Part shown: positions 12,227-64,000 of the stretch, piece after piece
Position numbering within the stretch: position 1 is the first letter of the stretch
Layout of the letters: every line of letters starts with the position of its first letter
Assembly: GCF_964355755.1 (NCBI RefSeq)
Contig: NC_092672.1
Coordinates: forward strand, 18,720,501-18,784,500
Direction of reading: 5' to 3'
Source: Antedon mediterranea
Lineage: Eukaryota > Echinodermata > Crinoidea > Comatulida > Antedonidae
DNA: 64,000 bases
Translations under genes and position numbers: made by a program
The notes under the pieces: model-generated
The model's input: only the letters and a program-made list of their open reading frames with translations
The model's database searches: none
Told to the model about the DNA's origin: nothing

Positions 12227-13615
12227 CTAAAGTGTGTTTTGATTGTTTCTGTCTCCAATGTACGTATATCCTTGTACATCAAGATCTTCAGGAACTTGAG
12301 AAGCAAATGAATGTCTCCAGTGACCATAATGTCCAGTACTTGGTAATCGAGGTAAAGATCGATCATAAAGACCACTATTTGAAACTCGATCTCTGGTATC
12401 ATAGTACACAGTAGGTTGATATATCTCTCTACCAGATGAATCAGTAGCAGTCCTTGTCTTACAGAAGCATTGATAATAAACAGGAATGATGACAACAACT
12501 ACAACAATAATGACGACTAATATGATAATAATGATCACAACATACAAAGAGATTTCCCTTTTGTCTCCTAAATCATCTGATAAAAGCATTTTATTTTCAT
12601 CTTCATAGTCTGATTCGGAATTTCCACCCGTATTGCCATGATGTACATTACTATTCCGTTTCTCTTCACTAATGTATAATACAACTGTATGTGACGTTTC
12701 ACCTACCACATTTTTACCTGTACATGTTATCTTAGTTCCATTGTGCTTGCGTGTGGGTTGCAAAAGACGGAATACTTGTCCATCATTTTCATATTCATTG
12801 ACATCTAGCATTGGCAGAGAAATCCATTCATATTGTTTCACCGGTGGGTTTGCAAATGATTGACAAAATAGTATAGCATCAGATCCTGTATATATAACAT
12901 CAGTATGTTGAATTTTTATGACTGGTTTGTAATAAATATTTAAATTGTCGACTACACAGAAAGCAACATATGGCTGTTGTTTTACATGCGAAGATTGTTT
13001 ACAAGTAAATGCATATTTTTTTTCAGCTTTTTTAGCATTAAATGTCAAATTTGTATAAAAAAATTTTCCCCACACGTTACTTCGTACACCACTTGTAATT
13101 ATCGTACCATTTTCATGTATCCAATTAAGTTCAACTGGTGGTTTGATAAGTTCACTTACGCATGATAATGTTATAGTAGATCCAACAATAAAACTGTCTC
13201 CAGAACCAATACACTGTGGGTAATCAGAAGATGGTATTTGAAGTACCGTAAGATGCGCCGTGCCAGATCTTATGTTTTCATCTTCTTGTAGTCTACAGTG
13301 ATAATCGTCTTCGTCTGTTAATGTAACATCTGATATCACCAATGAATACATACGCATTTCACCAGAAGGAACTTTCAAGGAAGACATGGACATTCGGGCA
13401 TTTTCATCCTTTATATTTTCATTTAGATCTGCTAACTTACTACGTCCTTTCCACCAAGAAACGGCATTAACTACATCTTCAGAAATAAAACAAGAAAGAA
13501 CTGCTTGTTTTCCTTCTATTACAGATACATCTTCAAGTTTTCCAACAAAACTAACACAACTAACGCCTAAAATGTGTGTCCACAGAAACAGTATAGTTAC
13601 AATAATGTTTCCCAT
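12227..13615 (-). CDS. Three-Ig type I membrane receptor, family A subtype A1
   Basis: Single exon, 462 residues. A hydrophobic signal peptide (about 1-20) precedes Ig1 (Cys42 to Cys107, with SWW core and DEDDYHC), Ig2 (Cys152 to Cys205, N-W core) and Ig3 (Cys251 to Cys298, motif CQSFANPPV). Two further cysteines, Cys135 in YPQC and Cys220, bracket Ig2 and recur in every gene of the window, so a second Ig2 disulfide is likely. An acidic linker (319-355) leads to a transmembrane helix made almost only of Ile and Val (356-378). The cytoplasmic tail carries YYQCFC, PTVYYDTRD, RSLPRLP (matching the class I SH3-ligand pattern) and WRHSFASQVPEDLDV. By architecture it is a cell-surface adhesion or recognition receptor; the ligand is unknown. 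It starts with VSFVGK after the signal peptide, as does its neighbour at 14423. Confidence 0.93.
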   Translation of the reverse strand: MGNIIVTILFLWTHILGVSCVSFVGKLEDVSVIEGKQAVLSCFISEDVVNAVSWWKGRSKLADLNENIKDENARMSMSSLKVPSGEMRMYSLVISDVTLTDEDDYHCRLQEDENIRSGTAHLTVLQIPSSDYPQCIGSGDSFIVGSTITLSCVSELIKPPVELNWIHENGTIITSGVRSNVWGKFFYTNLTFNAKKAEKKYAFTCKQSSHVKQQPYVAFCVVDNLNIYYKPVIKIQHTDVIYTGSDAILFCQSFANPPVKQYEWISLPMLDVNEYENDGQVFRLLQPTRKHNGTKITCTGKNVVGETSHTVVLYISEEKRNSNVHHGNTGGNSESDYEDENKMLLSDDLGDKREISLYVVIIIIILVVIIVVVVVIIPVYYQCFCKTRTATDSSGREIYQPTVYYDTRDRVSNSGLYDRSLPRLPSTGHYGHWRHSFASQVPEDLDVQGYTYIGDRNNQNTL

Positions 13616-14422
13616 TACATGTTCTATACAATATATTTTCCGTTATGTTTCTTTCCTTGTTATTCAAAAAGTCAATCACCATTGTTTGTACCTTATAAAT
13701 ATTATTGTTTGACTGTTTCTAGTGAATTATAAGAAGTATAATATCTGTTTGTCAGGCAGAAAAGGTGCGTGCATATCGTTTGATAAAGCATGCTCATTAA
13801 AAAAAATAGTTTCTGGTATCTAAAAAATAACTAATGTGAATGCATATTGATTATAAAGTTACAACATTATACCTTTATCAAATTGGATTTTGTTTTCAAT
13901 AATCTACAAAATAAACAATTAAAGTCGTTATAGATGATATAATAATAGTGTATACGAACCATATTTGACGTCGAATGAAGGTAAAGAAGTTCGTATGATC
14001 ACATTAAACTAGCAATCTAGGAATGTTGCTGGGCGCAAGTGCTATGATTGTGAACAACGGTGACTTTATTTTTGGAATAGGCCTTAAGTAGAAATACTTC
14101 ATACATACATAAAATAATTATGTAAAACTGAATAAATACTGTACTCTTAGGCTATTTATGTATTCACTGAAATGTATTCACTGAGCACATCATGATTATA
14201 TAATTTTTTTTAACGGATGTGGATTTGGAAATAAAAATGAAAATATAATAAGAACAATGCATTTTTTATCTTATCCTTTCTGTGATGAACTTCATATTTA
14301 ACATGCACTCATTATTTCAACAAAGTTGAGAGGACCAGTGGCTATAAAAATGACCAATATTCTACTTGGTAGAGCTAAAATAAAATAATTATTTTTTTCT
14401 GTAACAAGAACAACCTACTATG
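13616..14422 (-). promoter_or_regulatory. Upstream region of A1 gene, variant family A motif
   Basis: This spacer ends at the 3' flank of the next gene. About 195 bp before the ATG it has TTTCTGGTATCTAAAA (about 13808-13824), a variant of the TGTTACnGGTAT box found in other family A spacers. The block from 13616 to about 14060 closely resembles 15812-16220 upstream of the next A1 gene, showing that promoter and gene duplicated together. I see no other gene. Confidence 0.5.
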
Positions 14423-15811
14423 CTAAAGTGTATTCTGATTGTTCCTATCTTCGATGTATGTATATCCTTGTGCATCAAGATCTTCAGGAACTTGAGAAGC
14501 AAAGGAATGTCTCCAGTGACCATAATGTCCAGTACTTGGTAATCGAGGTAAAGATCGATCATAAAGACCACTATTAGAAACTCGATCTCTGGTATCATAG
14601 TACACAGTAGGTTGATATATCTCTCTACCAGATGAATCAGTAGCAGTCCTTGTTTTACAGAAGCATTGATAATAAACAGGAATGATGACAACAACTACAA
14701 CAATAATGACGACTAATATGATAATAATGATCACAACATACAAAGAGATTTTCGTTTTGTCTTCTAAATCATCTGATAAAAGCATATTATTTTCATCTTC
14801 ATAGTCTGATTTGGAATTTTCACCTGTATTGCCATGATGTACATTACTATTTTGTTTCCCGTCACTAATGTATAATACAACTGTATGTGACGTTTCACCT
14901 ACCACATTTTTGCCTGTACATGTTATCTTAGTTCCATTGTGCTTGCGTGTGGGTTGCAAAAGACGGAATACTTGTCCATCATTTTCATATTCATTGACAT
15001 CTAGCATTGGCTGAGAAATCCATTCATATTGTTTCACCGGTGGGTTTGAAAATGATTGACAAAATAGTATAGCATCAGATCCTGTATATATAACATCAGT
15101 ATGTTGAATTTTTATGACTGGTTTATAATAAATATTTAAATTGTCCACTACACAGAAAGCAACACCTGGCTGTTGTCTTACATGCGAAGATTGTTTACAA
15201 GTAAATGTATGTTTGTTGTCAGCTTTTTTAGCATTAAATGTGAAATTTGTATAAACAAATTTCCCCCACACGTTACTTCGTACATCACTTGTAATTATCG
15301 TACCATCATCATTTATCCAATTTAGTTCAACTGGTGGTTTGATAAACTCACTTACACATGATAATGTTATAGTAGATTCAACTATAAAACTGTCTCCAGA
15401 AACAATACACTGTGGGTAATCAGATGATGGTATTTGAAGTACCGCAAGATGCGCCGTGCCAGATCTTATGTTTTCATCTTCTTGTAGTCTACAGTGATAA
15501 TCGCCTTCGTCTGTTAATGTAACATCTGATATCATCAACGAATACATACGCATTTCACTAGCAGGAACCTTCGAGGAAGACATGGACATTCTAGAGTCTT
15601 CATCAATTGTATTTACAGTTAGAGCTGCTAACTTATCCAGTCCTTTCCACCAAGAAACGACATTAACTACATCTTCAGAAATAAAACAAGAAAGAACTGC
15701 TTGTTTTCCTTCTATCGCAGATACATCTTCGGGCTTTCCAACAAAACTAACACAACTAACGTCTAAAATGTTTGTCCACAGAAACAGTATAGTTACAATA
15801 ATGGTTCCCAT
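14423..15811 (-). CDS. Three-Ig type I membrane receptor, family A subtype A1
   Basis: This 462-residue single-exon gene is a close duplicate of the one at 12227. Domain order and cysteine positions are identical. Substitutions are mostly conservative and scattered through Ig1 and Ig2: NVVSWWKGLDK replaces NAVSWWKGRSK, and Ig2 has INDDGTIITSD. Ig3 differs by only a few residues, and transmembrane segment plus tail are nearly identical (QGYTYIED against QGYTYIGD). The ATG is in the same place as in its duplicate and is followed by a good signal peptide. Shared 5' flanking sequence indicates a duplication that included the promoter. Confidence 0.93.
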   Translation of the reverse strand: MGTIIVTILFLWTNILDVSCVSFVGKPEDVSAIEGKQAVLSCFISEDVVNVVSWWKGLDKLAALTVNTIDEDSRMSMSSSKVPASEMRMYSLMISDVTLTDEGDYHCRLQEDENIRSGTAHLAVLQIPSSDYPQCIVSGDSFIVESTITLSCVSEFIKPPVELNWINDDGTIITSDVRSNVWGKFVYTNFTFNAKKADNKHTFTCKQSSHVRQQPGVAFCVVDNLNIYYKPVIKIQHTDVIYTGSDAILFCQSFSNPPVKQYEWISQPMLDVNEYENDGQVFRLLQPTRKHNGTKITCTGKNVVGETSHTVVLYISDGKQNSNVHHGNTGENSKSDYEDENNMLLSDDLEDKTKISLYVVIIIIILVVIIVVVVVIIPVYYQCFCKTRTATDSSGREIYQPTVYYDTRDRVSNSGLYDRSLPRLPSTGHYGHWRHSFASQVPEDLDAQGYTYIEDRNNQNTL

Positions 15812-16732: not shown

Positions 16733-18100
16733 TTAAAGTGTATTCTGATTGTTCCTATCTTCAATGTACGTATATCCTTGTACATCAAGATCTTCAGGAA
16801 CTTGAGAAGCAAATGAATGTCTCCAGTGACCATAATGTCCAGTACTTGGTAAACGAGGTAAAGATCGATCATAAAGACCACTATTTGAAACTCGATCTCT
16901 GGTATCATAGTACACAGTAGGTTGATATATCTCTCTACCAGATGAATCAGTAGCAGTCCTTGTTTTACAAAAGCATTGATAATAAACAGGAATAATGACA
17001 ACAACGACAACAATAATGACGACTAATATGATAATAATGATCACAACATACAAAGAGACACTATCCTTATTTTCTTCAGTATTCCTATTTGTATTTACTT
17101 TGTGTAATTGTATTAAGTCATTATTTTCTTCTCTATACAATTCATTTTCTCTTACAAGTGATATTATCAAAGTAAGTGTATCTCTACTGATACCAACATT
17201 GTTTTCGGCAGAACACGTGATTATTGTTCCATTTGCCGCTATTGATGGTTTTATAAGCGTCAATACTTGTCCATCTGCAATATATTTATTTGCATTTATT
17301 ACAGGTAAAAATGTCCATCTGAATTGAGTAACTGGAGGATTAGCAAATGATTGACAGAATAAAATAGAATCAGATCCGGCGAATAGTGTACTTGTGTGTT
17401 GTATTTTAACTTCTGGGCGATATTGTATATTCAGATTTTGAACTGTACAGTTGCGCTTTCCAGGTAAAACATCTGTTGTTTGAAAACAAGTAAATGTACC
17501 ATCGTTATCTAGTTTGTTTGCTTTGAATACATAATGATTATATATAAGTGGGTCTTTATTTTCCCTCGATGTCTTCGAAAGCGAAACATCTCTTGTCTTG
17601 TAATTCCAACTTAATTGAACTGGTGGATTAATCATTTCACTAATACAAGATAACTTTATTTCCGATCCAACAACGTAACTCTCTTTTGATTGAATACATT
17701 TTGGATATTCACCTGATGGAATTTGATAAACTGCGAGATAAGCTGGTTGTGATTTAACTTTATTATTTATTTTACAGTGATATTCACCTGCATCTGTTTG
17801 CTTTAGGTTGGTAATCAGCAACAAATATGAATAAATGTGTGTGTCACCAACTTGCTCTAGGTTTACTGACAACCTCGAATCTTTCAATAAAACTTCTGCT
17901 TGATTGCTTAACTTAACATCATCTCTCCACCACGAAACTTCATCATTTTTTGGATTAATGTTTTCAATATAACATTTTAGCGTTGCTGCTTTACCTTCTG
18001 GTTCGCCTACATCATTGGGTCTTGCAGTAAAATGTCCACATTCTACAATATGTACAACTACGACGCAAATTACGTATGTACGTATTATTATTATTTCCAT
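16733..18100 (-). CDS. Three-Ig type I membrane receptor, family A subtype A2
   Basis: Single exon, 455 residues. Subtype A2 is marked by HFTARPNDVGEPEGK at the start of Ig1. Ig1 runs from Cys43 to Cys109 with VSWWRDD and TDAGEYHC. Ig2 starts after YPKC (Cys135) and contains KLSCISEMINPP and VQLSW. Ig3 has the A2 pattern RPEVKIQHTSTLFAG and CQSFANPPVTQFRW. The linker here reads VRENELYREENNDLIQ, unlike the other A2 genes. The tail is the common family A tail ending NNQNTL. Asn-x-Ser/Thr sites (NCTVQN, NGTIIT) suggest a glycosylated ectodomain. On the minus strand CATAGTAAGTTG follows the stop immediately and looks like a splice donor. Confidence 0.93.
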   Translation of the reverse strand: MEIIIIRTYVICVVVVHIVECGHFTARPNDVGEPEGKAATLKCYIENINPKNDEVSWWRDDVKLSNQAEVLLKDSRLSVNLEQVGDTHIYSYLLLITNLKQTDAGEYHCKINNKVKSQPAYLAVYQIPSGEYPKCIQSKESYVVGSEIKLSCISEMINPPVQLSWNYKTRDVSLSKTSRENKDPLIYNHYVFKANKLDNDGTFTCFQTTDVLPGKRNCTVQNLNIQYRPEVKIQHTSTLFAGSDSILFCQSFANPPVTQFRWTFLPVINANKYIADGQVLTLIKPSIAANGTIITCSAENNVGISRDTLTLIISLVRENELYREENNDLIQLHKVNTNRNTEENKDSVSLYVVIIIIILVVIIVVVVVIIPVYYQCFCKTRTATDSSGREIYQPTVYYDTRDRVSNSGLYDRSLPRLPSTGHYGHWRHSFASQVPEDLDVQGYTYIEDRNNQNTL

Positions 18101-18592: not shown

Positions 18593-19948
18593 TTAATCTT
18601 GAAGTGTATTTTGATTGTTCTTATCTTCAATATACGTATATCCTTGTACATCAAGATCTTCAGGAACTTGAGAAGCAAATGAATGTCTCCAGTGACCATA
18701 ATGTCCAGTACTTGGTAATCGAGGTAAAGATCGATCATAAAGACCACTATTTGAAACGCGACCTCTGGTATCATAGTACACAGTAGGTTGATACATCTCT
18801 CTACCAGATGAATCAGTAGCAGTCCTTGTCTTACAGAAGCATTGATAATAAACAGGAATGATGACAACAACTACCAAAATTATGACGACTAATATGATAA
18901 TAATGATCACAACATATAAAGAGACACTGTCTTTATCTTCTTCTTTATTCGTATTTATATTTACCTTGTGTAATTGTATTACGTCATTACTTTCTTTTGT
19001 AGAATCTTTATTGGGTCTTCCATTTGATATTATTAAATTTATTGTGTCTCTACTAGTACCAACATTATTTTCTGCAGAACACGTGATTATTGTTCCATTT
19101 GTGGTAATTGATGGTTTTATAAGCGTCAACACTTGTCCATCTGCAATGTATTCATTTGCGTTCAATACAGGCGAAAACGTCCACATAAACTGAGTAACTG
19201 GAGGATTAGCAAATGATTGACAGAATAAAATGGAATCAGATCCAATGAATAGTGTACTTGTGTGTTGTATTTTAACTTCTGGGCGATATTGTATATTTAG
19301 ATTTTGAATTGTACAGTTGCGCTTTTCAGGTAAAACATCTGTTGTTTGATAACAAGTAAATGTACCATCGTTATCTAGTTTGTTTGCTTCAAATACATAA
19401 TGATTATAGACAAGTGTGTCTTTAATTTCCATTGATGTCTTAGAAAGCGAAACATCTCTCCATTTTAATTGTACTGGTGGATTTAGCATTTCACTAATAC
19501 AAGATAATTTTATTTCCGATCCAACAACGTAACTCTCTTTTGATTGAATACATTTTGGATATTCACTAGATGGAATTTGGTAAACTGCGAGATGAGCTGG
19601 TTGTGATTTAATTTCATTATTTATTTCACAGTGATATTCACCGGCATCTGTTTGCTTTATATTCACAATCAACAACGAATATAAATAAATTTGTGTCTCA
19701 CCAACTTTCTCGACACTTACTGACAACCTTGAATCTTTCGCTATAACTTCTGCTTGATTGCTTATTTTGAAATTTCCCTTCCACCACGAAACTTCATCAT
19801 TTTCTGGATTAATTTTTTCAATATAACATTTTAGCGTTGCGACTTTACCCTCTGGTTCGCCTACATCATTTGGTCTTGCAGCAAAATGTCCACATTCTAC
19901 AATATATACAGCTACACAGATTGCAAATGTACGTATTAATATTTCCAT
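18593..19948 (-). CDS. Three-Ig type I membrane receptor, family A subtype A2, extended C-terminus
   Basis: 451 residues from the ATG at 19948. The frame stays open a little further upstream, but the paralogues and the signal peptide MEILIRTFAICV support this start. Ig2 is about four residues shorter than in the other A2 genes (WRDVSLSK, without the NYKT stretch). Ig3 matches the gene at 20679 residue for residue from RPEVKIQH through CSAENN, although the Ig1 domains of the two genes are of different subtypes. The tail runs two residues past the usual end (NTLQD), because the usual stop codon is lost. The tail also has DTRGRV where the others have DTRDRV. Confidence 0.92.
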   Translation of the reverse strand: MEILIRTFAICVAVYIVECGHFAARPNDVGEPEGKVATLKCYIEKINPENDEVSWWKGNFKISNQAEVIAKDSRLSVSVEKVGETQIYLYSLLIVNIKQTDAGEYHCEINNEIKSQPAHLAVYQIPSSEYPKCIQSKESYVVGSEIKLSCISEMLNPPVQLKWRDVSLSKTSMEIKDTLVYNHYVFEANKLDNDGTFTCYQTTDVLPEKRNCTIQNLNIQYRPEVKIQHTSTLFIGSDSILFCQSFANPPVTQFMWTFSPVLNANEYIADGQVLTLIKPSITTNGTIITCSAENNVGTSRDTINLIISNGRPNKDSTKESNDVIQLHKVNINTNKEEDKDSVSLYVVIIIIILVVIILVVVVIIPVYYQCFCKTRTATDSSGREMYQPTVYYDTRGRVSNSGLYDRSLPRLPSTGHYGHWRHSFASQVPEDLDVQGYTYIEDKNNQNTLQD

Positions 19949-20678
19949 TTGAAAAAAATCCTGATTCTGATTTTCAATATTCCACAAGTAAAACAATGAA
20001 TGTTTCTGAACTGAATACATACATTACAACACTATCTTCATGTTTAAAAGTCTATATCTGATGTACTTCATTTATAGCAAAATTAAATAAACATTAAATT
20101 CAGATTGATGAAAAGATTACCTCCAAGTTTCATATGTTCTATTTACACTGTCATTATCAATTTAATATTTATCTTATACCATATCTTGAGCAAAAATAAA
20201 ATAAACAGAAACTGACAAGTATTATATATAATATATAAAGCATGCTGGATATTAAGTTTTGTTACTGGTATCAGTAAAATGCGGTTTTTAAAATCACACT
20301 ACTTCAAGAATTAGTTTCAACGTTTTGGTAATCATGTTTTGTTCTCTGAGCAAGCTTAGAAGAAATGTTATGTTTTCTATATATATCGTATCCAAATATT
20401 TAATAGGAAACTTAATTTAATCTTAAATTTTATTCTCATTATTCTTATCTTTAAGTAAAATCTTATCAGTAAAACATTCTAGTCGTGTTTGTGCCATAGT
20501 TTTCCATTTAAATTGTTGAAATGCTCTGTTAATCACAGAAGTCAGCTGAGTTGCATCTATGATTTGTATTTATGTTTTTTTGGCTCCAAATATTCGAAAA
20601 AATTTGCGAAAAAAATCTGAGAAGAAATTTAATTGTATTGTTTTCATTGTTCCATTCGTTAGGAAACTCCATTTATTC
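19949..20678 (-). promoter_or_regulatory. Upstream region of A2 gene, copy 1 of a duplicated spacer
   Basis: The family A box TGTTACTGGTAT is at about 20259-20270, 315 bp before the ATG. Minus-strand CTTGGAGGTAATC (complement of about 20117-20129) is a candidate 5' UTR splice donor. The whole spacer is nearly identical to 23879-24607, offset by about 3929 bp, which marks a segmental duplication of a two-gene block. No other gene is visible. Confidence 0.55.
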
Positions 20679-22043
20679 TTAAAGTGTATTCTGATTATTT
20701 CTATCTTCAATGTACGTATATCCTTGTACATCAAGATCTTCAGGAACTTGAGAAGCAAATGAATGTCTCCAGTGACCATAATGTCCAGTACTTGGTAAAC
20801 GAGGTAAAGATCGATCATAAAGACCACTATTTGAAACTCGATCTCTGGTATCATAGTACACAGTAGGTTGATATATCTCTCTACCAGATGAATCAGTAGC
20901 AGTCCTTGTCTTACAGAAGCATTGATAATAAACAGGAATGATGACAACAACTACAACAATAATGACGACTAATATGATAATAATGATCACAACATACAAA
21001 GACACACTATCCTTATCTTCTTCATTATTCGTATTTATATTCACCTTATGTAATTGTATTACGTCATTACTTTCTTTTGTAGAGTCTTTATTTTGTCTTC
21101 CATTTGATATTATTAAAGTTATTGAATCTCTACTGATACCAATATTATTTTCTGCAGAACACGTGATTATTGTTCCATTTGTGGTAATTGATGGTTTTAT
21201 AAGCGTCAACACTTGTCCATCTGCAATGTATTCATTTGCGTTCAATACAGGCGAAAAGGTCCACATAAACTGAGTAACTGGAGGATTAGCAAATGATTGA
21301 CAGAATAAAATGGAATCAGATCCAATGAATAGTGTACTTGTGTGTTGTATTTTAACTTCTGGACGATATTGTATATTTAGATTTCGAATTGTACAGTTAC
21401 TTACTCCAGATGTAGCTTCCGATGTTTGTTTACAAGTAAAGTTGGCATCATTGTCTATTTTCTTCGCATTGAATGTATAATGCGTATAAGTCAAATAACT
21501 GTCTGTCTCAGACTGAGTATTCAATATATTAACTTTTCCATAACGACTCCATGTTAACTGCACTGGTGGTCTAAGTAATTGACTAATACAAGTTAACTTG
21601 ACTTTTGAATCAACAATGAAACTGTTGGCAGACTTTTTACATTGTGGATATTCTGATGAAGGAACTTGCATTACGGTTAGACGGGCTACTCCAGAACTGA
21701 CGACGGGAGTTTGATCAATCTGGCAATGATAATTTCCCTCATCCTCAAGCAATAAATCTGAAATAGTTATTGAATACAAAAGTGATCCTTTAAATGTGGG
21801 AATTTCATCAATTTCAACAGATAGACGATTGTTTTTAGTCAATATCTTATTATTCGAAGTTAAATGCAGGCCTTCTTTCCACCAGGATACAATATGAATA
21901 TCATTATCAAATCCTCCTATGAAGCATTTCAAAGTTGCAACTTGTCCTTCAAGCTCATTCACATCCTTTGGTTTAGCATCAAATTTAACAGACTGAACAA
22001 GAAATATTTGGACAAAACATATCAAATATTCAAATAAATCCAT
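20679..22043 (-). CDS. Three-Ig type I membrane receptor, mosaic A3 ectodomain with A2-type Ig3
   Basis: 454 residues. The signal peptide MDLFEYLICFVQIF and the Ig1 start KFDAKPKDVNELEG define subtype A3. Ig1 spans Cys40-Cys107 (VSWWKEG, DEGNYHC). Ig2 spans Cys152-Cys204 (RPPVQLTWSRYG), bracketed by Cys135 and Cys217. From RPEVKIQH onward the protein switches to A2 sequence and is essentially identical to the gene at 18593. Linker, Ile/Val transmembrane helix and tail follow the family norm. The abrupt change of affinity at the Ig2-Ig3 border indicates recombination or gene conversion. AATAAA lies within ten bases after the stop and could serve as the polyadenylation signal. Confidence 0.92.
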   Translation of the reverse strand: MDLFEYLICFVQIFLVQSVKFDAKPKDVNELEGQVATLKCFIGGFDNDIHIVSWWKEGLHLTSNNKILTKNNRLSVEIDEIPTFKGSLLYSITISDLLLEDEGNYHCQIDQTPVVSSGVARLTVMQVPSSEYPQCKKSANSFIVDSKVKLTCISQLLRPPVQLTWSRYGKVNILNTQSETDSYLTYTHYTFNAKKIDNDANFTCKQTSEATSGVSNCTIRNLNIQYRPEVKIQHTSTLFIGSDSILFCQSFANPPVTQFMWTFSPVLNANEYIADGQVLTLIKPSITTNGTIITCSAENNIGISRDSITLIISNGRQNKDSTKESNDVIQLHKVNINTNNEEDKDSVSLYVVIIIIILVVIIVVVVVIIPVYYQCFCKTRTATDSSGREIYQPTVYYDTRDRVSNSGLYDRSLPRLPSTGHYGHWRHSFASQVPEDLDVQGYTYIEDRNNQNTL

Positions 22044-45505: not shown

Positions 45506-45844
45506 AACAACTTTTTATTTGGAGAATGAGAGTAATTACTAAAACATTTAACCCAATTACAAATCATTTCTAATAATGTGTTTAATGCTGGCAATTAACA
45601 ATAACGCAAACAATTTGTCTTATGGCCAATTTTAGAATATATTACAAGTAACAGAATACTGTGTTTGTTGTTCCGTAATTTATCTTTATTCATGATTAGG
45701 AGGGAATTGAAAATAGCCGAAGAAGGCACACATATAATAATGCATTGCTACAGATCTGAAAGCTGTTATGTTGGAGTTATCAGTGTGAGTAGTCAATACT
45801 GCAGTTATGATATCTTTTAAAGTTGAGATTTATGTATAATTAGA
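45506..45844 (+). promoter_or_regulatory. Upstream region of first B gene, degenerate family B block
   Basis: Only a partial form of the family B upstream block is present: GAAAATAGCCGAAGAAGGCAC at about 45709-45729, some 115 bp before the ATG. GAGTAAC and the TATGTAGTGAA part are not recognisable. No other gene is visible. Confidence 0.35.
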
Positions 45845-53332: not shown

Positions 53333-54688
53333 ATGGTTAACTCAAGGTATATTTTGATGTTACTAAAATTGTGCTTTTTTAAAAGAATTATGACATCGTC
53401 AACCGAATTTAGTCATCATCCTCGGGAAGAAACTGTGATTGAGGGTACTGCTGTAAAATTGACATGCGGTATTGAAGGAGTTGATTCTGAAAGTACGTTT
53501 GCTTGGATAAAAAATGGTGTTACATTGACTAGCGGTAATGCCATTTTAGAATCTAGCCCATATTTTCATCGTAATGTATTAGTTGATTTTGGATGGTTGT
53601 CAAAAACATCTATTTACTATGGACTTAAAATTAATAATGTTCTGTACAGTGATTCAGGAGAATACGCATGCATTGTAAATCATAATGGATTTGAGGTAAA
53701 ATCTAATACAGCTTATATAACAGTTAATCAATTACCGGATCGTACTTATCCGTTATGTAAACAAATAGGCAGCCCTGTTAAGGAAGGAAAGCAAGTGAAT
53801 CTGAGATGTGAAGGTGAAGTTTTAAACCCACCCATCGAATTACAATTATCAAGATCAATGGCAGGTAACCAATCAGTTACCATATTGAATAAGCGAACAA
53901 CGCCTATTATTAATTCATTTGTAGCAAATCGTGTTGATAATAATGCTATATTTAATTGTCAGCTAACAACACCAGCGAATACAAGTATCGTTAGAACATG
54001 TAGTATTGGACCACTAAATGTTTGGTATAAACCTAATGTTACAATACAACATGCAGGGATATCATTATCAGGAAGAGAAGCCATTTTTATTTGCCAATCT
54101 GATGCAAACCCACCAGTAGTAGATTTTACGTGGCAATTTGATCCGCCATTAAACATTGAGCGTTATGTTATTGATGATATTGGGCAAGTTATGCGCATTC
54201 TAAAAGTTGACATTGATGACAATGGATTACTTGTTAAATGCATTACCAAAAATACTGTTGGTCAGGTGACATCTCACGTGATCATGGAAGTGATTGGTGT
54301 TAAAGAAGAGGACAAACCAAAGACAAACGCTATTGAATCTGTGAATGAAAAACAAGCAGAAAAGAAAAGTATATCTTTATCAGTTTTACTAGCTGTTGTA
54401 TCTGTATTAGTTCTTGTTATTGTATTTGCTATTATTGTTCCTGTTTATTACTTCTGTATTTGCTCTAAGAAAGAGGAAACTGTTGTTATTGCTCAACCGG
54501 AAGTATACTTTGAACCTCAAGATCGTCTGACATTACCATTGCCAAATAAAAGAAATTCTGTGTTGTGGAGACGTTCATTTGGAGCTCAAGTTCCTACAGA
54601 CAGAGATGTAGATGCCATGTATTTGGAGATACAAAGTGATCACTATATCTTCACACCAGATAGCAGAGGAAATACTTTGCCTTATTGA
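53333..54688 (+). CDS. Three-Ig type I membrane receptor, family B subtype B3
   Basis: 451 residues from the ATG at 53333, aligned with the starts of the other B3 genes; an in-frame ATG 60 bp upstream is less likely because it precedes the signal peptide (MVNSRYILMLLKLCFF). Ig1: EFSHHPREETVIEGTAVKLTC, TFAWIKNGVTL, YSDSGEYAC. Ig2: YPLC, then PPIELQLSRS with Leu where Ig domains usually have the core Trp, and Cys in FNCQLTTPAN. Ig3 is HAGISLSG type. The linker IGVKEEDKPKTN is shared with the B2 gene at 55127 next to it, a hint of local exchange. Confidence 0.92.
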   Translation: MVNSRYILMLLKLCFFKRIMTSSTEFSHHPREETVIEGTAVKLTCGIEGVDSESTFAWIKNGVTLTSGNAILESSPYFHRNVLVDFGWLSKTSIYYGLKINNVLYSDSGEYACIVNHNGFEVKSNTAYITVNQLPDRTYPLCKQIGSPVKEGKQVNLRCEGEVLNPPIELQLSRSMAGNQSVTILNKRTTPIINSFVANRVDNNAIFNCQLTTPANTSIVRTCSIGPLNVWYKPNVTIQHAGISLSGREAIFICQSDANPPVVDFTWQFDPPLNIERYVIDDIGQVMRILKVDIDDNGLLVKCITKNTVGQVTSHVIMEVIGVKEEDKPKTNAIESVNEKQAEKKSISLSVLLAVVSVLVLVIVFAIIVPVYYFCICSKKEETVVIAQPEVYFEPQDRLTLPLPNKRNSVLWRRSFGAQVPTDRDVDAMYLEIQSDHYIFTPDSRGNTLPY

Positions 54689-55126: not shown

Positions 55127-56473
55127 ATGGAAGTGTTTGTATGGTTTCACACATTGCTTATTATTCATGTATCGTTCTGTTTCAAATTTAGCCATCATCC
55201 GATTGGAAGTAAGGTTCAAGAAGGGTTTGGTGTGGAACTTACCTGCTTTTTAACGGGCGATTTATCAAAAGAACAGTTATCGTGGGTGAAGGATAGTTCA
55301 TCACTAACAAAAGGAGAAATAATTTTAGACACAAGTGGTGTAGACCAAGAAAGAATAAATGTGCACATCATACAGACAACTGGTGTTTATGCATATACAA
55401 TATCTATATCCAGCGTTGTGTATAAAGATAGCGGGTCATATGCTTGCGTTGTTTTTCAAAATGGTGAACAAGTATTGACATCTGATTACGCTGTTGTAAC
55501 TGTTTTTCAACTACCAAGTCCCGAATATCCAATATGTACCAGAATATCACGACCAGTAATAACAGAGGAAGAAATAACCTTTAAATGTGAAGGGGAAACG
55601 ATAAACCCACCAATATATTTAAGTTGGTCTATTGGTGGAAGCAAATTAGAAATTAACGTTGAATCACATGTTGATTCAGAGAAAACGTTTTCTACGTATT
55701 CATTAACAGCAAGTCCAAATAACAACAATGCCGTCTACGTATGCTCACTCACAACTCCAGCTAACCGTAGTATTGTCAAAAACTGTAGCATTGGACCACT
55801 AAATGTCTGGTATAAACCTAATATTACAATACAACATGCAGGAAGATCGTTTTCAGGAAGAGAAGCCATTTTTATTTGCCAATCTGATGCAAACCCACCA
55901 GTAGTAGATTTTACGTGGCAATTTGATCCGCCATTAAACATTAAGCGTTATGTTATTGATCATATTGGGCAGGTTATGCGTATTCTACGTGTTACTCTTG
56001 ATGACAATGGATTACTTGTTAAATGCATAGCAGAAAATACTGTTGGTCAGGTGACATCTCACGTGATCATGGAAGTGATTGGTGTTAAAGAAGAGGACAA
56101 ACCAAAGACAAACGCTATTGAATCTGTGAATGAAAAACAAGCAGAAAAGAAAAGTATATCTTTATCAGTTTTACTAGCTGTTGTATCTGTATTAGTTCTT
56201 GTTATTGTATTTGCTATTATTGTTCCTGTTTATTACTTCTGTATTTGCTCAAAGAAAGAGGAAACTGTTGTTATTGCTCAACCGGAAGTATACTTTGAAC
56301 CTCAAGACCGACTGACATTACCATTGCCAAATAAAAGAAACTCTGTGTTGTGGAGACGTTCATTTGGAGCACAAGTTCCTACAGATAGAGATGTTGATGC
56401 CATGTATTTGGAAATACAGAGTGAGCATTACATCTTCACACCAGATAGCAGAGGAAATACTCTGCCTTATTGA
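55127..56473 (+). CDS. Three-Ig type I membrane receptor, family B subtype B2
   Basis: 448 residues. Signal peptide MEVFVWFHTLLIIHVSFC. Ig1: KFSHHPIGSKVQEGFGVELTC, QLSWVKDSSSL, YKDSGSYAC. Ig2 is B2 type with core Trp (YLSWSIGGSK). Ig3 has IQHAGRSFSGREAIF like 47700, and a private change IDHIGQVMR where all others have IDDIGQVMR. The linker is that of the preceding B3 gene (VKEEDKPKTN). The tail is standard. Confidence 0.93.
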   Translation: MEVFVWFHTLLIIHVSFCFKFSHHPIGSKVQEGFGVELTCFLTGDLSKEQLSWVKDSSSLTKGEIILDTSGVDQERINVHIIQTTGVYAYTISISSVVYKDSGSYACVVFQNGEQVLTSDYAVVTVFQLPSPEYPICTRISRPVITEEEITFKCEGETINPPIYLSWSIGGSKLEINVESHVDSEKTFSTYSLTASPNNNNAVYVCSLTTPANRSIVKNCSIGPLNVWYKPNITIQHAGRSFSGREAIFICQSDANPPVVDFTWQFDPPLNIKRYVIDHIGQVMRILRVTLDDNGLLVKCIAENTVGQVTSHVIMEVIGVKEEDKPKTNAIESVNEKQAEKKSISLSVLLAVVSVLVLVIVFAIIVPVYYFCICSKKEETVVIAQPEVYFEPQDRLTLPLPNKRNSVLWRRSFGAQVPTDRDVDAMYLEIQSEHYIFTPDSRGNTLPY

Positions 56474-57239: not shown

Positions 57240-58598
57240 ATGAATATTTTAAGGTACGTTTTTATTCTATTTCAATTTTGTTTTGTTAAGCGGATTGTGG
57301 CAACATCCGCAGAATTTGTTTACCATCCTCAAACTGAAACCGTAATTGAAGGTACTACTGCTTTGAAATTGACATGCGTTTTTGAAGGAGCTGATTCTGA
57401 AAGTACGTTTTCTTGGATAAAAAATGGTGTTACATTAACCAATGGTAAAGACATTTTAGAATCTAGTCCATTTTTTGATCACAATGTATTCGTTGATTTT
57501 AGATGGTTAACTACAACTTCTATTTACTATACACTTGAAATAAGTAACGTTTTGTATAGTGATTCCGGAGAATACGCATGCGTTGTAAATCAGAATGGAT
57601 TTGAGGTAAAATCCAATACAGCTTATATAACAGTTAATCAATTACCGGATCGTACTTATCCGTTATGTGAACAAATAGGCAGCCCTGTTAAAGAAGGAAA
57701 GCAAGTGAATTTAAGATGTGAAGGTGAGGTTATAAACCCACCCATCGAATTACAATTATCAAGATCAATGCCAGGTAACCAAGCAGTTACCATATTGAAT
57801 AAGCGGACAACGCCTATTATTAATTCATTTGTAGCAAATCGTGTTGATAATAATGCTATATTTAATTGTCAGCTAACAACACCAGCGAATACAAGTATCG
57901 TTAGAACATGTAGTATTGGACCACTAAATGTCTGGTATAAACCCAATGTTACAATACAACATGCAGGGATATCATTATCAGGAAGGGAAGCCATTTTTAT
58001 TTGTCAATCTGATGCAAACCCCCCAGTAGTAGATTTTACGTGGCAATTTGATCCGATATTAAACATTGAGCGTTATGTTATTGATGATATTGGGCAAGTT
58101 ATGCGCATTCTAAAAATTGAAATTGAGGACAATGGATTACTTGTTAAATGCATAGCCAAAAATACTGTTGGTCAGGTGACATCTCACGTGATCATGGAAG
58201 TGATCGGTAATAAAGCAGATGACAAACCAAAGACAAACGCTATTGAATCTGTGAATGAAAAAGAAGCAGAAAAGAAAAATATATCTGTATCAGTTTTACT
58301 AGCTGTTGTATCTGTATTAGTTCTTGTTATTGTATTTGCTATTATTGTTCCTGTTTATTACTTCTGTATTTGTTCAAAGAAAGAGGAAAATGTTGTTATT
58401 GCTCAACCGGAAGTATACTTTGAACCTCAAGATCGTCTGACATTACCATTGCCAAATAAAAGAAACTCTGTGTTGTGGAGACGTTCATTTGGAGCTCAAG
58501 TTCCTACAGACAGAGATGTAGATGCCATGTATTTGGAGATACAGAGTGAGCATTACATCTTCACGCCAGATAGCAGAGGAAATACCCTGCCTTATTGA
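57240..58598 (+). CDS. Three-Ig type I membrane receptor, family B subtype B3
   Basis: 452 residues. Signal peptide about 1-24. Ig1 spans Cys46-Cys114 (TTALKLTC with one extra residue relative to 53333, FSWIKNGVTL, SDSGEYAC). Ig2 spans Cys160-Cys210, bracketed by Cys143 and Cys224, without a core Trp. Ig3 spans Cys255-Cys304. The helix is about 349-371 and the tail 372-452. Private features are FRWLTTTSIYYTLE in Ig1 and KEAEKKNISVSV before the membrane. It starts a run of four closely similar B3 genes. Confidence 0.93.
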   Translation: MNILRYVFILFQFCFVKRIVATSAEFVYHPQTETVIEGTTALKLTCVFEGADSESTFSWIKNGVTLTNGKDILESSPFFDHNVFVDFRWLTTTSIYYTLEISNVLYSDSGEYACVVNQNGFEVKSNTAYITVNQLPDRTYPLCEQIGSPVKEGKQVNLRCEGEVINPPIELQLSRSMPGNQAVTILNKRTTPIINSFVANRVDNNAIFNCQLTTPANTSIVRTCSIGPLNVWYKPNVTIQHAGISLSGREAIFICQSDANPPVVDFTWQFDPILNIERYVIDDIGQVMRILKIEIEDNGLLVKCIAKNTVGQVTSHVIMEVIGNKADDKPKTNAIESVNEKEAEKKNISVSVLLAVVSVLVLVIVFAIIVPVYYFCICSKKEENVVIAQPEVYFEPQDRLTLPLPNKRNSVLWRRSFGAQVPTDRDVDAMYLEIQSEHYIFTPDSRGNTLPY

Positions 58599-58928: not shown

Positions 58929-60290
58929 ATGAATATTTTAAGGTACGTTTTTATTCTATTTCAATTTTATTTTGTTAAGCGGATTGTGGCAACATCCACA
59001 GAATTCATTTATCATCCTCGAGCTGAAACCGCAATTGAGGGAACTGCCGTTAAATTGACATGCGGTGTTGAAGGAGTTGATTCTGAAAGTACGTTTTCTT
59101 GGATTAAAAATGGTGTTACATTGACCAATGGTAAAGACATTTTAGAATCTAGTCCATATTTTGATCGCAATGTATTAGTTGATTTTGGGTGGTTAACCAC
59201 AACATCTATCTACTATGGACTTGAAATAAGTAATGTTTTGTATAGTGATTCCGGAGAATACGCATGCGTTGTAAATATGAATGGAGTTGAGGTAAAATCC
59301 AATACAGCTTATGTAACAGTTAATCAATTACCGGATCGTACTTATCCGATATGTAAACAAATAGGCAGCCCTGTTAAAGAAGGAAAGGAAGTGAATCTGA
59401 GATGTGAAGGTGAGGTTATAAACCCACCCATCGAATTACAATTATCAAGATCAATGCCAGGTAACCAAGCAGTTACCATATTGAATAAGCGGACAACGCC
59501 TATTATTAATTCATTTGTAGCAAATCGTGTTGATAATAATGCTATATTTAATTGTCAGCTAACAACACCAGCGAATACAAGTATCGTTAGAACATGTAGT
59601 ATTGGACCACTAAATGTCTGGTATAAACCCAATGTTACAATACAACATGCAGGGATATCATTATCAGGAAGGGAAGCCATTTTTATTTGCCAATCTGATG
59701 CAAACCCACCAGTAGTAGATTTTACTTGGCAATTTGATCCGCCATTAAACATTGAGCGTTATGTTATTGATGATATTGGCCAAGTTATGCGCATTCTAAA
59801 AGTTGACATTGATGACAATGAATTACTTGTTAAATGCATAGCCAAAAATACTGTTGGTCAGGTGACATCTCACGTGATCATGGAAGTGATCGGTAATAAA
59901 GAAAATGACAAACCAAAGACAAACGCTATTGAATCTGTGAATGAAAAACAAGCAGAAAAGAAAAGTAGGCCTATATCTTTATCAGTTTTATTAGCTGTTG
60001 TATCTGTATTAGTTCTTGTTATTGTATTTGCTATTATTGTTCCTGTTTATTACTTCTGTATTTGCTCAAAGAAAGAGGAAACTGTTGTTATTGCTCAACC
60101 GGAAGTATACTTTGAACCTCAAGATCGTCTGACATTACCATTGCCAAATAAAAGAAACTCTGTGTTGTGGAGACGTTCATTTGGAGCTCAAGTTCCTACA
60201 GACAGAGATGTAGATTCCATGTATTTGGAGATACATAGTGAGCATTACATCTTCACACCAGATAGCAGAGGAAATACTCTGCCTTATTGA
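58929..60290 (+). CDS. Three-Ig type I membrane receptor, family B subtype B3, with TAGGCCTA insertion
   Basis: 453 residues. Ig1 is a distinct allele-like version (EFIYHPRAETAIEGTAVKLTC, FGWLTTTSIYYGLE, VVNMNGVEVKS), close to the partial gene at 62849. Ig2 is nearly identical to 57240. Just before the membrane the protein reads EKKSRPISLS where paralogues read EKKSISLS. At DNA level six bases are inserted, creating TAGGCCTA at 59966-59973 without breaking the frame. The tail has two private changes, DVDSMYLEI and EIHSEHY. Confidence 0.93.
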   Translation: MNILRYVFILFQFYFVKRIVATSTEFIYHPRAETAIEGTAVKLTCGVEGVDSESTFSWIKNGVTLTNGKDILESSPYFDRNVLVDFGWLTTTSIYYGLEISNVLYSDSGEYACVVNMNGVEVKSNTAYVTVNQLPDRTYPICKQIGSPVKEGKEVNLRCEGEVINPPIELQLSRSMPGNQAVTILNKRTTPIINSFVANRVDNNAIFNCQLTTPANTSIVRTCSIGPLNVWYKPNVTIQHAGISLSGREAIFICQSDANPPVVDFTWQFDPPLNIERYVIDDIGQVMRILKVDIDDNELLVKCIAKNTVGQVTSHVIMEVIGNKENDKPKTNAIESVNEKQAEKKSRPISLSVLLAVVSVLVLVIVFAIIVPVYYFCICSKKEETVVIAQPEVYFEPQDRLTLPLPNKRNSVLWRRSFGAQVPTDRDVDSMYLEIHSEHYIFTPDSRGNTLPY

Positions 60291-60890: not shown

Positions 60891-62249
60891 ATGAATATTT
60901 TAAGGTACGTTTTTATTCTATTTCAATTATATTTTGTTAAGCGAATTGTGGCAACATCCGCAGAATTTGTTTACCATCCTCAAACTGAAACCGTAATTGA
61001 AGGTACTCCTGCTTTGAAATTGACATGCGTTTTTGAAGGAGTTGATTCTGAAAGTACGTTTTCTTGGATAAAAAATGGTGTTACATTGACCAATGATAAA
61101 GACATTTTAGAATCTAGTCCATATTTTGATCGCAATGTATTCGTTGATTTTGGATGGTTAACTACAAATTCTATTTACTATAAACTTGAAATAAGTAATG
61201 TTTTGTATAGTGATTCCGGAGAATACGCATGCGTTGTAAATCAGAATGGATTTGAGGTAAAATCCAATACAGCTTATATAACAGTTAATCAATTACCGCA
61301 TCGTACTTATCCGTTATGTGAACAAATAGGCAGCCCTGTTAAAGAAGGAAAGGAAGTGAATCTCAGATGTGAAGGTGAGGTTATAAACCCACCCATCGAA
61401 TTACAATTATCAAGATCAATGGCAGGTAACCAAGCAGTTACCATATTGAATAAGCGGACAACGCCTATTATTAATTCATTTGTAGCAAATCGTGTTGATA
61501 ATAATGCCATATTTAATTGTCAGCTAACAACACCAGCAAATACAAGCATTGTTAGAACATGTAGCATTGGACCACTAAATGTCTGGTATAAACCTAATGT
61601 TACAATACAACATGCAGGGATATCATTATCAGGAAGGGAAGCCATTTTTATTTGCCAATCTGATGCAAACCCACCAGTAGTAGATTTTACTTGGCAATTT
61701 GATCCGATATTAAAAATTGAGCGTTATGTTATTGATGATATTGGGCAAGTTATGCGCATTCTAAAAATTGAAATTGAGGACAATGGATTACTTGTTAAAT
61801 GCATAGCCAAAAATACTGTTGGTCAGGTGACATCTCACGTGATTATGGAAGTGATCGGTAATAAAGAAGATGACAAACCAAAGAAAAAGGCTATTGAATC
61901 TGTGAATGAAAAACAAACAGAAAAGAAAAGTATATCTTTATCAGTTTTACTAGCTGTTGTATCTGTATTAGTTCTTGTTATTGTATTTGCTATTATTGTT
62001 CCTGTTTATTACTTCTGTATTTGCTCAAAGAAAGAGGAAACTGTTGTTATTGCTCAACCGGAAGTATACTTTGAACCTCAGGATCGTCTGACATTACCAT
62101 TGCCAAATAAAAGAAACTCTGTGTTGTGGAGACGTTCATTTGGAGCTCAAGTTCCTACAGACAGAGATGTTGATGCCATGTATTTGGAGATACAGAGTGA
62201 GCATTACATCTTCACACCAGATAGCAGAGGAAATACTCTGCCTTATTGA
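60891..62249 (+). CDS. Three-Ig type I membrane receptor, family B subtype B3
   Basis: 452 residues. Ig1 is like 57240 (EFVYHPQTETVIEGT) with PALKLTC, NDKDILES and TTNSIYYKLE as private changes. The junction reads QLPHRTYPLC, a His shared with the gene at 62849. Ig3 has FDPILKIERY. The linker has PKKKAIESVNE where nearly all others have PKTNAIESVNE, making it strongly basic. The tail is standard. Confidence 0.93.
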   Translation: MNILRYVFILFQLYFVKRIVATSAEFVYHPQTETVIEGTPALKLTCVFEGVDSESTFSWIKNGVTLTNDKDILESSPYFDRNVFVDFGWLTTNSIYYKLEISNVLYSDSGEYACVVNQNGFEVKSNTAYITVNQLPHRTYPLCEQIGSPVKEGKEVNLRCEGEVINPPIELQLSRSMAGNQAVTILNKRTTPIINSFVANRVDNNAIFNCQLTTPANTSIVRTCSIGPLNVWYKPNVTIQHAGISLSGREAIFICQSDANPPVVDFTWQFDPILKIERYVIDDIGQVMRILKIEIEDNGLLVKCIAKNTVGQVTSHVIMEVIGNKEDDKPKKKAIESVNEKQTEKKSISLSVLLAVVSVLVLVIVFAIIVPVYYFCICSKKEETVVIAQPEVYFEPQDRLTLPLPNKRNSVLWRRSFGAQVPTDRDVDAMYLEIQSEHYIFTPDSRGNTLPY

Positions 62250-62848
62250 CTGATAATTAAGTTTCATCAGGGAAGAGTGAAATTAATGTTACATTCATTC
62301 TTTCATTGATCTTTTTATTTCTTATATACCATAACAAATCATCGTAAGAAATGCATAGCAAATAAAAAAAAAAAAAAAATTTAACCAAGAAAAAAATAGA
62401 AATAGATGTACAATTATAAAGGAATAGTCAATGTAAGAAAGTATTCCATTGTTTATGCATTATTGAGACATTAAGAAGGTGATTTCTAATAGTCTTGATC
62501 TTAGTGAATCGTCTTAGTAATAATAGTAATTGTAGAAGATTTAAGATTGTGAGATAGGTCTGGTATCGCCATACTTATTGCAATAGATAAGGGTTTATTA
62601 AGTAACAATGCTTTTAATCCTAGTATCCGGAATTTAAGGAGTAACATTATATTTTATTTTAGTAGCCGTCGATCATGTGTATTGCAGAAAAGGCGGTGCT
62701 TATAATTATGTAATTAATATGTAGTGAACCATGAAACGTGTAACTAAATATTTCTCGGCTTAGTACATTATAGTAACATACGTATTCAATTTGTTATCAC
62801 TATAACCCTTCTGGGAAAGTAATACATGTATGTAAGTTACTGTACAAA
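62250..62848 (+). promoter_or_regulatory. Upstream region of last B3 gene, family B block
   Basis: GAGTAACATTA at 62639, TAGTAGCCGTCGATC, AAAGGCGGTGCTTATA and TATGTAGTGAACC to about 62730, 120 bp before the ATG. Near-identical to the preceding spacer, with a longer A run (about 62365-62380). No gene is visible. Confidence 0.6.
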
Positions 62849-64000
62849 ATGAATATTTTAAGGTACGTTTTTATTCTTTTTCAATTTTATTTTGTTAATC
62901 GAATTGTGGCAACATCCACAGAATTCATTTATCATCCTCGAGCTGAAACTGCAATTGAGGGAACTGTTGTGAAATTGACATGCGGTGTTGAAGGAGTTGA
63001 TTCTGAAAGTACGTTTTCTTGGATAAAAAATGGTGTTACATTGACCAATGGTAAAGACATTTTAGAATCTAGTCCATATTTGGATCGCAATTTATTCGTC
63101 GATTTTGGATGGTTAACTACAACTTCTATTTACTATACCCTTGAAATAAGTAATGTTTTGCACAGTGATTCCGGAGAATACGCATGCATTGTAAATCATA
63201 ATGGATTTGAGGTAAAATCTAATACAGCTTATATAACAGTTAATCAATTACCACATCGTACTTATCCGTTATGTGAACAAATAGGCAGCCCTGTTAAAGA
63301 AGGAAAGCAAGTGAATCTGAGATGTGAAGGTGAGGTTATAAACCCACCCATCGAATTAAAATTATCAAGATCAATGCCAGGTAACCAAGCAGTTACCATA
63401 TTGAATAAGCGGACAACGCCTATTATTAATTCATTTGTAGCAAATCGTGTTGATAATAATGCTATATTTAATTGTCAGCTAACAACACCAGCGAATACAA
63501 GTATCGTTAGAACATGTAGTATTGGACCACTAAATGTTTGGTATAAACCTAATGTTACAATACAACATGCAGGGATATCATTATCAGGAAGGGAAGCCAT
63601 TTTTATTTGTCAAGCAGATGCAAACCCACCAGTAGACTTTACGTGGCAATTTGATCCGATATTAAACATTGAGCGTTATGTTATTGATGATATTGGGCAA
63701 GTTATGCGCATTCTAAATGTTGACATTGATGACAATGGATTACTTGTTAAATGCATAGCCAAAAATACTGTTGGTCAGGTGACATCTCACGTGATCATGG
63801 AAGTGATCGGTAATAAAGAAGACGACAAACCAAAGACAAACGCTATTGAATCTGTGAATGAAAAACAAGCAGAAAAGAAAAGTATATCTTTATCAGTTTT
63901 ACTAGCTGTTGTATCTGTATTAGTTCTTGTTATTGTATTTGCTATTATTGTTCCTGTTTATTACTTTTGTATTTGCTCAAAGAAAGAGGAAACTGTTGTT
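62849..64000 (+). CDS. Three-Ig type I membrane receptor, family B subtype B3 (3' end outside window)
   Basis: The ATG at 62849 opens a frame that stays open for 384 codons to the window edge, where it ends in the first residues of the tail (CSKKEETVV). Ig1 resembles 58929 at its start (EFIYHPRAETAIEGT) and 60891 or 57240 further in, so it is itself a mosaic. One codon is missing in Ig3, PPVDFTW where the others have PPVVDFTW. LKVDIDDNG after the Ig3 core appears as LNVDIDDNG. The missing part should be the remaining tail of about 70 residues. Confidence 0.9.
   Translation, partial: MNILRYVFILFQFYFVNRIVATSTEFIYHPRAETAIEGTVVKLTCGVEGVDSESTFSWIKNGVTLTNGKDILESSPYLDRNLFVDFGWLTTTSIYYTLEISNVLHSDSGEYACIVNHNGFEVKSNTAYITVNQLPHRTYPLCEQIGSPVKEGKQVNLRCEGEVINPPIELKLSRSMPGNQAVTILNKRTTPIINSFVANRVDNNAIFNCQLTTPANTSIVRTCSIGPLNVWYKPNVTIQHAGISLSGREAIFICQADANPPVDFTWQFDPILNIERYVIDDIGQVMRILNVDIDDNGLLVKCIAKNTVGQVTSHVIMEVIGNKEDDKPKTNAIESVNEKQAEKKSISLSVLLAVVSVLVLVIVFAIIVPVYYFCICSKKEETVV

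Follow-up and report, generated by a model that had tools for sequence, protein, structure and literature searches.

In vertebrates, the clustered protocadherins form tandem, same-orientation arrays in which the whole ectodomain and the TM are encoded without introns, and in which, as measured by domain-wise dS, the recognition domains diverge while other parts are homogenised by gene conversion (PMC4978886); the large protocadherin family of octopus is also of this type. In the vertebrate alpha and gamma clusters, the cytoplasmic tail is largely a shared constant region that is spliced on. Among Ig receptors, the Hydractinia Alr family (allorecognition complex) is a clustered invertebrate family of V/I-type Ig receptors with a TM and a tail, for which 41 members have been reported (PMC11999971). 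Alr genes are intron-bearing, and the function of this cnidarian family has been shown by genetics and extreme polymorphism. Nectin, nectin-like (CADM), DIP and Kirrel adhesion receptors have three-Ig ectodomains and, in the case of nectins and CADMs, a single TM. Vertebrate clustered Ig immune receptors (KIR/LILR, CEACAM and fish NILT/NITR) combine variable ectodomains with tyrosine-bearing tails and concerted evolution (CEACAM, PMC7042247; NILT, PMC3022915), but they are multi-exon genes with bona fide ITIM/ITAM motifs. Finally, the known immune expansions of echinoderms are the TLR, NLR, SRCR and SpTransformer families; the sea urchin SRCR and SpTransformer families are large, clustered and lineage-specific (PMC10855680; PMC5103432), but they are different proteins and not three-Ig TM receptors.

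Here, we describe part of a very large family of intron-free genes for three-Ig cell-surface receptors in an echinoderm-like animal, probably a feather star. The outer domain differs strongly from gene to gene, while gene conversion keeps the predicted signalling tail nearly identical within each array. As in clustered protocadherins, one part of the gene escapes conversion and another is homogenised, although that Ig1 is the recognition domain is inferred. In contrast to protocadherins, these genes encode Ig instead of cadherin domains, and the tail is present in every ORF and kept alike by conversion rather than supplied by spliced constant exons. We did not find a matching report in literature searches for intronless or crinoid Ig receptor families, and a family of about 100 intron-free three-Ig receptors is not described in any paper that we could find. 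The family offers a clean case of how a recognition repertoire with one common output can be maintained by domain-specific gene conversion, convergent with clustered protocadherins, and a test bed for asking whether crinoids, the sister group of other echinoderms, use Ig receptors for self/non-self recognition or for neural identity.

The initial annotation of the window (the whole 64-kb stretch of DNA analysed) had proposed two divergent arrays of 24 intronless genes, 15 on the minus and nine on the plus strand, each with a signal peptide, three Ig-like domains, one helix and a shared-type tail, plus two broken copies. This observation was confirmed. All 24 ORFs and both broken copies are present (Table 1), the ORFs span 447–475 aa from ATG to stop, and the last one, which is cut by the window edge, is complete in the genome at C3:18783349–18784701 (C3 being the chromosome concerned). 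In 20 simulated 64-kb sequences with the same dinucleotide content, the longest ATG ORF was 179 aa, so 24 ORFs of about 455 aa are not due to chance. A few of the ORFs, as indicated in the table, begin at upstream in-frame ATGs that are probably not the true start.

Table 1. Positions of the receptor genes and broken copies within the window
Feature	Position	Strand	Length (aa)	Remarks
Array B gene 1	12227..13615	-	462	three-Ig receptor
Array B gene 2	14423..15811	-	462	
Array B gene 3	16733..18100	-	455	
Array B gene 4	18593..20020	-	475	upstream in-frame ATG; true start probably internal
Array B gene 5	20679..22043	-	454	modelled protein
Array B gene 6	22514..23878	-	454	
Array B gene 7	24608..25978	-	456	
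Array B gene 8	26554..27915	-	453	
Array B gene 9	28355..29719	-	454	
Array B gene 10	30109..31491	-	460	
Array B gene 11	31827..33215	-	462	
Array B gene 12	33588..34982	-	464	
Array B gene 13	35355..36749	-	464	
Array B gene 14	37122..38513	-	463	
Broken copy	39436..39782	-		Ig3 and tail remnants
Array B gene 15	40125..41501	-	458	
Broken copy	45346..45539	+		tail remnant, two frames
Array C gene 1	45845..47212	+	455	
Array C gene 2	47700..49043	+	447	
Array C gene 3	51526..52935	+	469	upstream in-frame ATG
Array C gene 4	53273..54688	+	471	upstream in-frame ATG
Array C gene 5	55127..56473	+	448	
Array C gene 6	57240..58598	+	452	
Array C gene 7	58929..60290	+	453	
Array C gene 8	60891..62249	+	452	
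Array C gene 9	62849..64000	+	450	cut by the window end; length is that of the complete gene in the genome

The window turned out to be a fragment of something larger. Its two arrays are the middle two of four adjacent arrays (10 genes on the minus strand, 15 minus, nine plus and 17 plus; arrays A to D), which together form a 213-kb cluster with 51 intact genes. Genome searches with single proteins as queries revealed at least 96 single-frame loci, 94 of them on one chromosome. The Hox genes (ambulacrarian, probably crinoid), GC and chromosome number suggest a crinoid, in agreement with the echinoderm setting assumed in the initial annotation. A search for mitochondrial COX1, intended for species identification, found nothing in the assembly.

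Each gene encodes a leader, a variable V/I-type Ig1, a C2-type Ig2, an I-type Ig3, a TM helix and a short cytoplasmic tail in one uninterrupted frame. Hydrophobic leaders are present in all 51 cluster genes checked, Pfam Ig families were found over the cut-off for three domains, and an AlphaFold model shows three Ig domains and a single TM helix at residues 349–376. The six Ig cysteines, a canonical pair in each domain, and two tail tyrosines (Tyr396 and Tyr444) are invariant in 62 of the 62 members compared. The family thus belongs to the immunoglobulin superfamily, and its closest folds are those of the DIP, nectin/Necl and Kirrel/SYG recognition receptors.

To find out how the genes evolve, we compared synonymous divergence along the coding sequence. 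Within an array, synonymous divergence is near saturation in Ig1 (mean dS 1.1–1.5), whereas it is about 0.12–0.14 in the tail. The step down lies at the TM segment in arrays B and D, near Ig3 in array C and near Ig2 in array A, and divergence rises again toward the stop codon, beyond which the 3' flanks become mostly unalignable. Tail dS is not correlated with Ig1 dS in arrays A, B and C, although the two are partly correlated in array D (rho 0.63). Every array is monophyletic for all domains, with shallow tails and deep Ig1, and we did not observe exchange between arrays. Altogether, these data indicate array-restricted gene conversion of a constant 3' module beside a divergent 5' module. The initial annotation had missed this homogenisation of the tail, which is the strongest clue.

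We also considered whether the similar tails could reflect selection on the nucleotide sequence or very recent duplication. The TM and tail are indeed constrained at the protein level (pN/pS 0.09). However, third-base identity of the tail at same-residue codons is 92–94% within arrays but only 43–58% between arrays, so this is not a general nucleotide constraint. In addition, Ig1 of the same genes is saturated, so the duplications are not recent, and divergence rises again at the 3' edge of homology although pN stays near zero. We therefore rejected this alternative as very unlikely.

We next searched for signs of diversifying selection. No segment reaches a pN/pS above 1, and positive selection on Ig1 was not detected. 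Values in Ig1 segments are mostly 0.4–0.9, with the highest well-sampled value in the BC loop (0.69–0.81), and values of 0.88–0.93 were found only in segments with fewer than ten synonymous changes. Hence, the diversifying recognition role that had been suggested on account of the dense arrays with variable ectodomains, which look like allorecognition and innate immune receptor complexes, is not shown. The same result makes it very unlikely that these are gamete-recognition or other reproductive surface proteins. Broadcast spawners often have fast-diverging gamete proteins, but such families are usually small and show pN/pS above 1.

Most likely (probability of roughly 0.55), the genes encode a large germline-encoded family of single-pass surface recognition receptors. 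In this view, each array grew from its own founder by tandem duplication, and the membrane-proximal and cytoplasmic module is repeatedly overwritten by conversion between neighbours, so that all receptors of an array would feed the same intracellular pathway, while Ig1 escapes conversion and diverges, which would give each gene its own binding specificity. Ligands, by analogy with the nearest folds other Ig-bearing cell-surface proteins or non-self structures, would bind Ig1, and phosphorylation of the tail tyrosines would recruit SH2 proteins. We favour an immune or self/non-self role over a developmental one, but neither use is proven. Our analysis demonstrates the anatomy of the genes, the size of the family, the array-restricted homogenisation and the purifying selection on the tail; in contrast, ligand binding by Ig1, tyrosine signalling and immune use are inferred from sequence alone. 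A more speculative and unlikely possibility is that the intron-free genes act as natural two-module cassettes, in which ongoing conversion, possibly also somatic in immune cells as reported for sea urchin coelomocyte immune genes, keeps one signalling module per array while Ig1 diversifies. Each array would then be a many-specificities-to-one-output repertoire used for self/non-self recognition.

An alternative, which we consider unlikely but cannot discard, is that the family is a cell-identity or adhesion code, labelling neurons or other cells through homophilic or heterophilic Ig1–Ig1 binding, as DIP/Dpr, nectins or clustered protocadherins do, with the shared tail giving one common output. 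In support of this, the nearest solved folds are mostly adhesion and not immune receptors. The best three-domain folds, by Foldseek and structural comparison, are DIP-theta/eta/alpha and Necl-4 (Z about 17), and the two N-terminal domains fit Rst/SYG-1/Neph1 D1–D2 at 2.5–3.0 Å. The lack of detectable positive selection and the similar domain-specific dS pattern of clustered protocadherins, whose specificity domains escape conversion (PMC4978886), are also in line with this idea. However, shared Ig-chain folds do not show function, and four separately expanded arrays with very divergent Ig1 in one chromosome region, plus further single-exon Ig clusters on other chromosomes, fit recognition of changing targets at least as well.

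With respect to the nectin/CADM family, the genes have the V-C2-I ectodomain with one TM, and the best PDB sequence match is CADM4. They differ in being single-exon members of a huge tandem family and in the tail, which is unrelated, carries the two invariant tyrosines and lacks the features of an afadin- or band-4.1-binding tail with a C-terminal PDZ-binding motif. The tails end in QNTL or TEND in arrays B and D, which is not the PDZ-binding type of nectins and CADMs, and they share a different conserved pattern, QPxVYFEPxD...W..S..QVP..Y; only array C (LPY) resembles a class II PDZ end. We did not find any Pfam relative of the tail, and a tail search in the PDB gave only chance-level matches. 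When we searched for the strict ITIM motif ([ILVS]xYxx[ILV]), a clear C-terminal ITIM was found in 5 of 15 tail types (for example SVYAEI and SVYMDI), with an overall count not above that of shuffles (P=0.07), although the tyrosine itself is invariant. ITAM and ITSM motifs were not enriched.

Regarding the origin of the family, the initial annotation had suggested founding by a retrocopy and later tandem expansion, on the grounds that Ig domains of animal genes are normally separated by introns. Under this hypothesis, which is compatible with either functional reading, a spliced mRNA of an intron-bearing nectin- or Kirrel-like gene would have been reverse transcribed. Overall, the interpretation given in the initial annotation was only partly supported: the dense same-orientation arrays of single-exon genes with a variable ectodomain and a shared tail hold, whereas retrocopy founding, like the diversifying role, is not shown and remains a tentative possibility. 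All scored family loci are single open frames in the coding sequence apart from a few broken copies, although introns in the 5'UTR are not excluded. However, the genome search with the tail recovered only single-exon members and no intron-bearing gene, and there was no excess of poly(A) runs downstream of the genes (2 of 51, against 1 of 51 upstream); an old event would have erased such relics, and a weak or diverged parent could be missed in this genome search. Intron loss is not excluded either. In the same genome, a different Ig cluster on chromosome C8 has one Ig per exon with GT donors at the exon ends, so the lack of introns is unusual here. On the other hand, other single-exon three-Ig genes with different tails exist on chromosome C11, so the intron-free state is older and wider than this family.

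To establish whether the ORFs described in the initial annotation are genuine, we first re-examined the window. The observation held: all 24 ORFs lie where they had been placed, are 447-475 aa long and run from ATG to stop in one frame, with the last one cut by the window edge. In contrast, simulated sequence of the same dinucleotide content never gave an ORF above 179 aa in 20 tries. Pfam searches identified three Ig domains (V-set or Ig_3 for Ig1, C2-set_2 for Ig2 in the minus-array genes, and Ig_2/Ig_3/I-set for the others). In agreement with these results, an AlphaFold model of one of the genes showed three predicted Ig sandwiches, of which Ig3 is less confident, one TM helix at residues 349-376 and a disordered tail. 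The two broken copies are also present.

We next looked at the genomic context within the 354-Mb, 18-contig assembly, in which the window belongs to contig C3. Reading the flanking DNA revealed four neighbouring arrays, named A to D, with 51 intact ORFs plus several broken ones. Combining two genome searches, each of which scored only 93-94 candidates, we counted at least 96 full-length or nearly full-length single-frame loci, 94 of them on C3 and two on contig C10. More distant single-exon three-Ig genes with other tails occur on C11, and further, apparently similar single frames were seen on C7, C9, C11 and elsewhere. Among these clusters with different tails, one gene has repeated LYAxP motifs in its tail and another a Thr/Pro-rich mucin-like stalk. 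A cluster on C8 has one Ig per exon with GT donors at the exon ends, so intron-bearing Ig genes coexist in this genome. Array D differs in its wider gene spacing (median 4.8 kb against 1.7-1.9 kb), and ORFs that are not family members sit between its genes, at least one of them reverse-transcriptase-like by eye.

Coordinates of the receptor arrays and of other features in the window and the assembly
Location	Strand	Feature
C3:18720501-18784500		The window
Window 1-12226		Stretch without family members between arrays A and B; no convincing protein-coding gene
Window 20679-22043		Receptor gene used for the AlphaFold model
Window 41940-42011 and 42341-42412	minus	Two tRNA-Asp genes (ARAGORN anticodon 'atc' as printed) in the gap between the two divergent arrays
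C3:18.701-18.914 Mb	A and B minus, C and D plus	Four neighbouring arrays: A, 10 genes; B, 15; C, 9; D, 17
C3:3.28-18.91 Mb		Range of the 94 family loci on C3
C3:11.8737-11.9036 Mb	plus	Very dense run of 18 family genes about 1.67 kb apart
C3:18866590-18867348, 18838457-18839374 and 18896268-18897242		ORFs between array D genes that are not family members
C11:5.48-5.60 and 15.84-16.12 Mb; C9:2.92-2.96 Mb; C7:0.03-0.9 and 3.3-3.6 Mb		Further clusters of single-frame multi-Ig genes with different tails
C8:4.7-5.78 Mb		Large cluster of C2-set Ig exons of about 110 aa each, with introns
C2:7.79-8.21 Mb		Apparently complete, ordered ambulacrarian Hox cluster

In an alignment of 62 members, the six Ig cysteines, the Ig3 tryptophan and two tail tyrosines were found to be invariant. 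The tail follows roughly the pattern QPxVYFEPxD ... W.RS..QVPxD ... xYxx, where several members outside the window read SxYAE(I/V), an ITIM. Strict ITIMs were not enriched by count (P=0.07), whereas a YxxP motif was present in 13 of 15 tail types (P=0.0005 against shuffles), although shared descent alone would give this result. We conclude that tyrosine signalling, of either sign, is likely. Searches of Pfam and the PDB with the tail did not reveal any related family or any chain with significant resemblance.

We then compared synonymous divergence between domains. Within arrays, mean dS for the leader plus Ig1 was 1.06, 1.47, 1.28 and 1.42 in A, B, C and D, but only 0.14, 0.14, 0.12 and 0.13 for the tail; as saturated pairs were left out of these means, the Ig1 values are underestimates. 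The low-divergence region starts near Ig2 in A, near Ig3 in C and abruptly at the TM in B and D (pS falls from 0.50 to 0.11 in B, and from 0.51 through 0.33 to 0.05 in D). Among pairs with Ig1 dS above 0.8 (32, 78, 23 and 91 pairs in A-D), tail dS still averaged 0.12, 0.16, 0.09 and 0.17. Tail third-base identity at codons for the same residue was 92-94% within arrays and 43-58% between arrays, which excludes a general nucleotide constraint as the cause of the similar tails. Except among recent duplicates, 3' flanks are mostly unalignable from the stop codon, and pS rises again in the last 25-50 codons while pN stays near zero, as expected if conversion weakens toward the edge of homology. Tail dS did not track Ig1 dS in A, B and C (rho 0.14, 0.17 and -0.04), but partly did so in D (0.63). 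A pair from a fifth array showed the same direction more weakly (pS 0.77 against 0.35). Each array is monophyletic for every domain. The simplest account of these data is founder-by-founder tandem expansion, with continuing gene conversion of a 3' module inside each array.

To assess selection, we calculated pN/pS in 20 non-overlapping close pairs. Values were 0.09 in TM and tail, 0.34-0.40 in Ig3 and Ig2, and 0.23-0.93 across Ig1 segments. The well-sampled maximum was the BC loop (0.69); the values of 0.88 and 0.93 rest on fewer than ten synonymous changes. The genes are under selection and Ig1 is the freest Ig domain, but no segment exceeds 1, and positive diversifying selection is therefore not demonstrated.

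Regarding function, the three-domain folds closest to the model are those of DIPs and Necl-4/nectins, and the first two domains fit Rst/SYG-1/Neph1 at 2.5-3.0 A. A phmmer search returned CADM4, PVR and nectins. Since such receptors bind through the Ig1 front sheet, it is a reasonable inference that Ig1 is the specificity domain. A pattern in which the specificity domain escapes conversion and the remainder is homogenised has been reported for clustered protocadherins using the same dS measure (PMC4978886). We therefore propose that many binding specificities would feed one common tail output per array, most likely for self/non-self or immune recognition (probability about 55%), with a cell-identity/adhesion code as the main rival, possible but less favoured. 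In this proposal, the gene anatomy, the minimum family size, the homogenisation of tails within arrays and the selection on the genes come directly from the sequence data, whereas binding by Ig1, tyrosine signalling and use in immunity are inferred. The interpretation given in the initial annotation, which suggested founding by a retrocopy and likened the arrays to allorecognition and innate immune receptor complexes, is supported only in part. Single-exon structure is universal in the family found, but no intron-bearing parent with this tail appeared in the genome search results and no poly(A) excess remains. Retrocopy founding is plausible but unproven.

Arrayed Ig recognition receptors are already known; the family described here differs in being intron-free, in occurring in an ambulacrarian and in showing array-restricted tail conversion. 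Full-text literature searches, which covered few subscription papers, found no matching description of intronless, single-exon or crinoid Ig receptor families or of ITIM Ig families in sea urchins.

Finally, we identified on contig C2 a Hox cluster that contains, in order, homeodomains that we assign from their sequence to Hox1 to Hox8, including Hox4- and Hox6-type genes, followed by Hox9/10 and 11/13-type genes. Together with a window GC of about 32% and homeobox genes on 11 contigs, this fits best with a crinoid, although a hemichordate is not excluded, as Anneissia japonica has 33.2% GC and an organised Hox cluster (PMC7351957).
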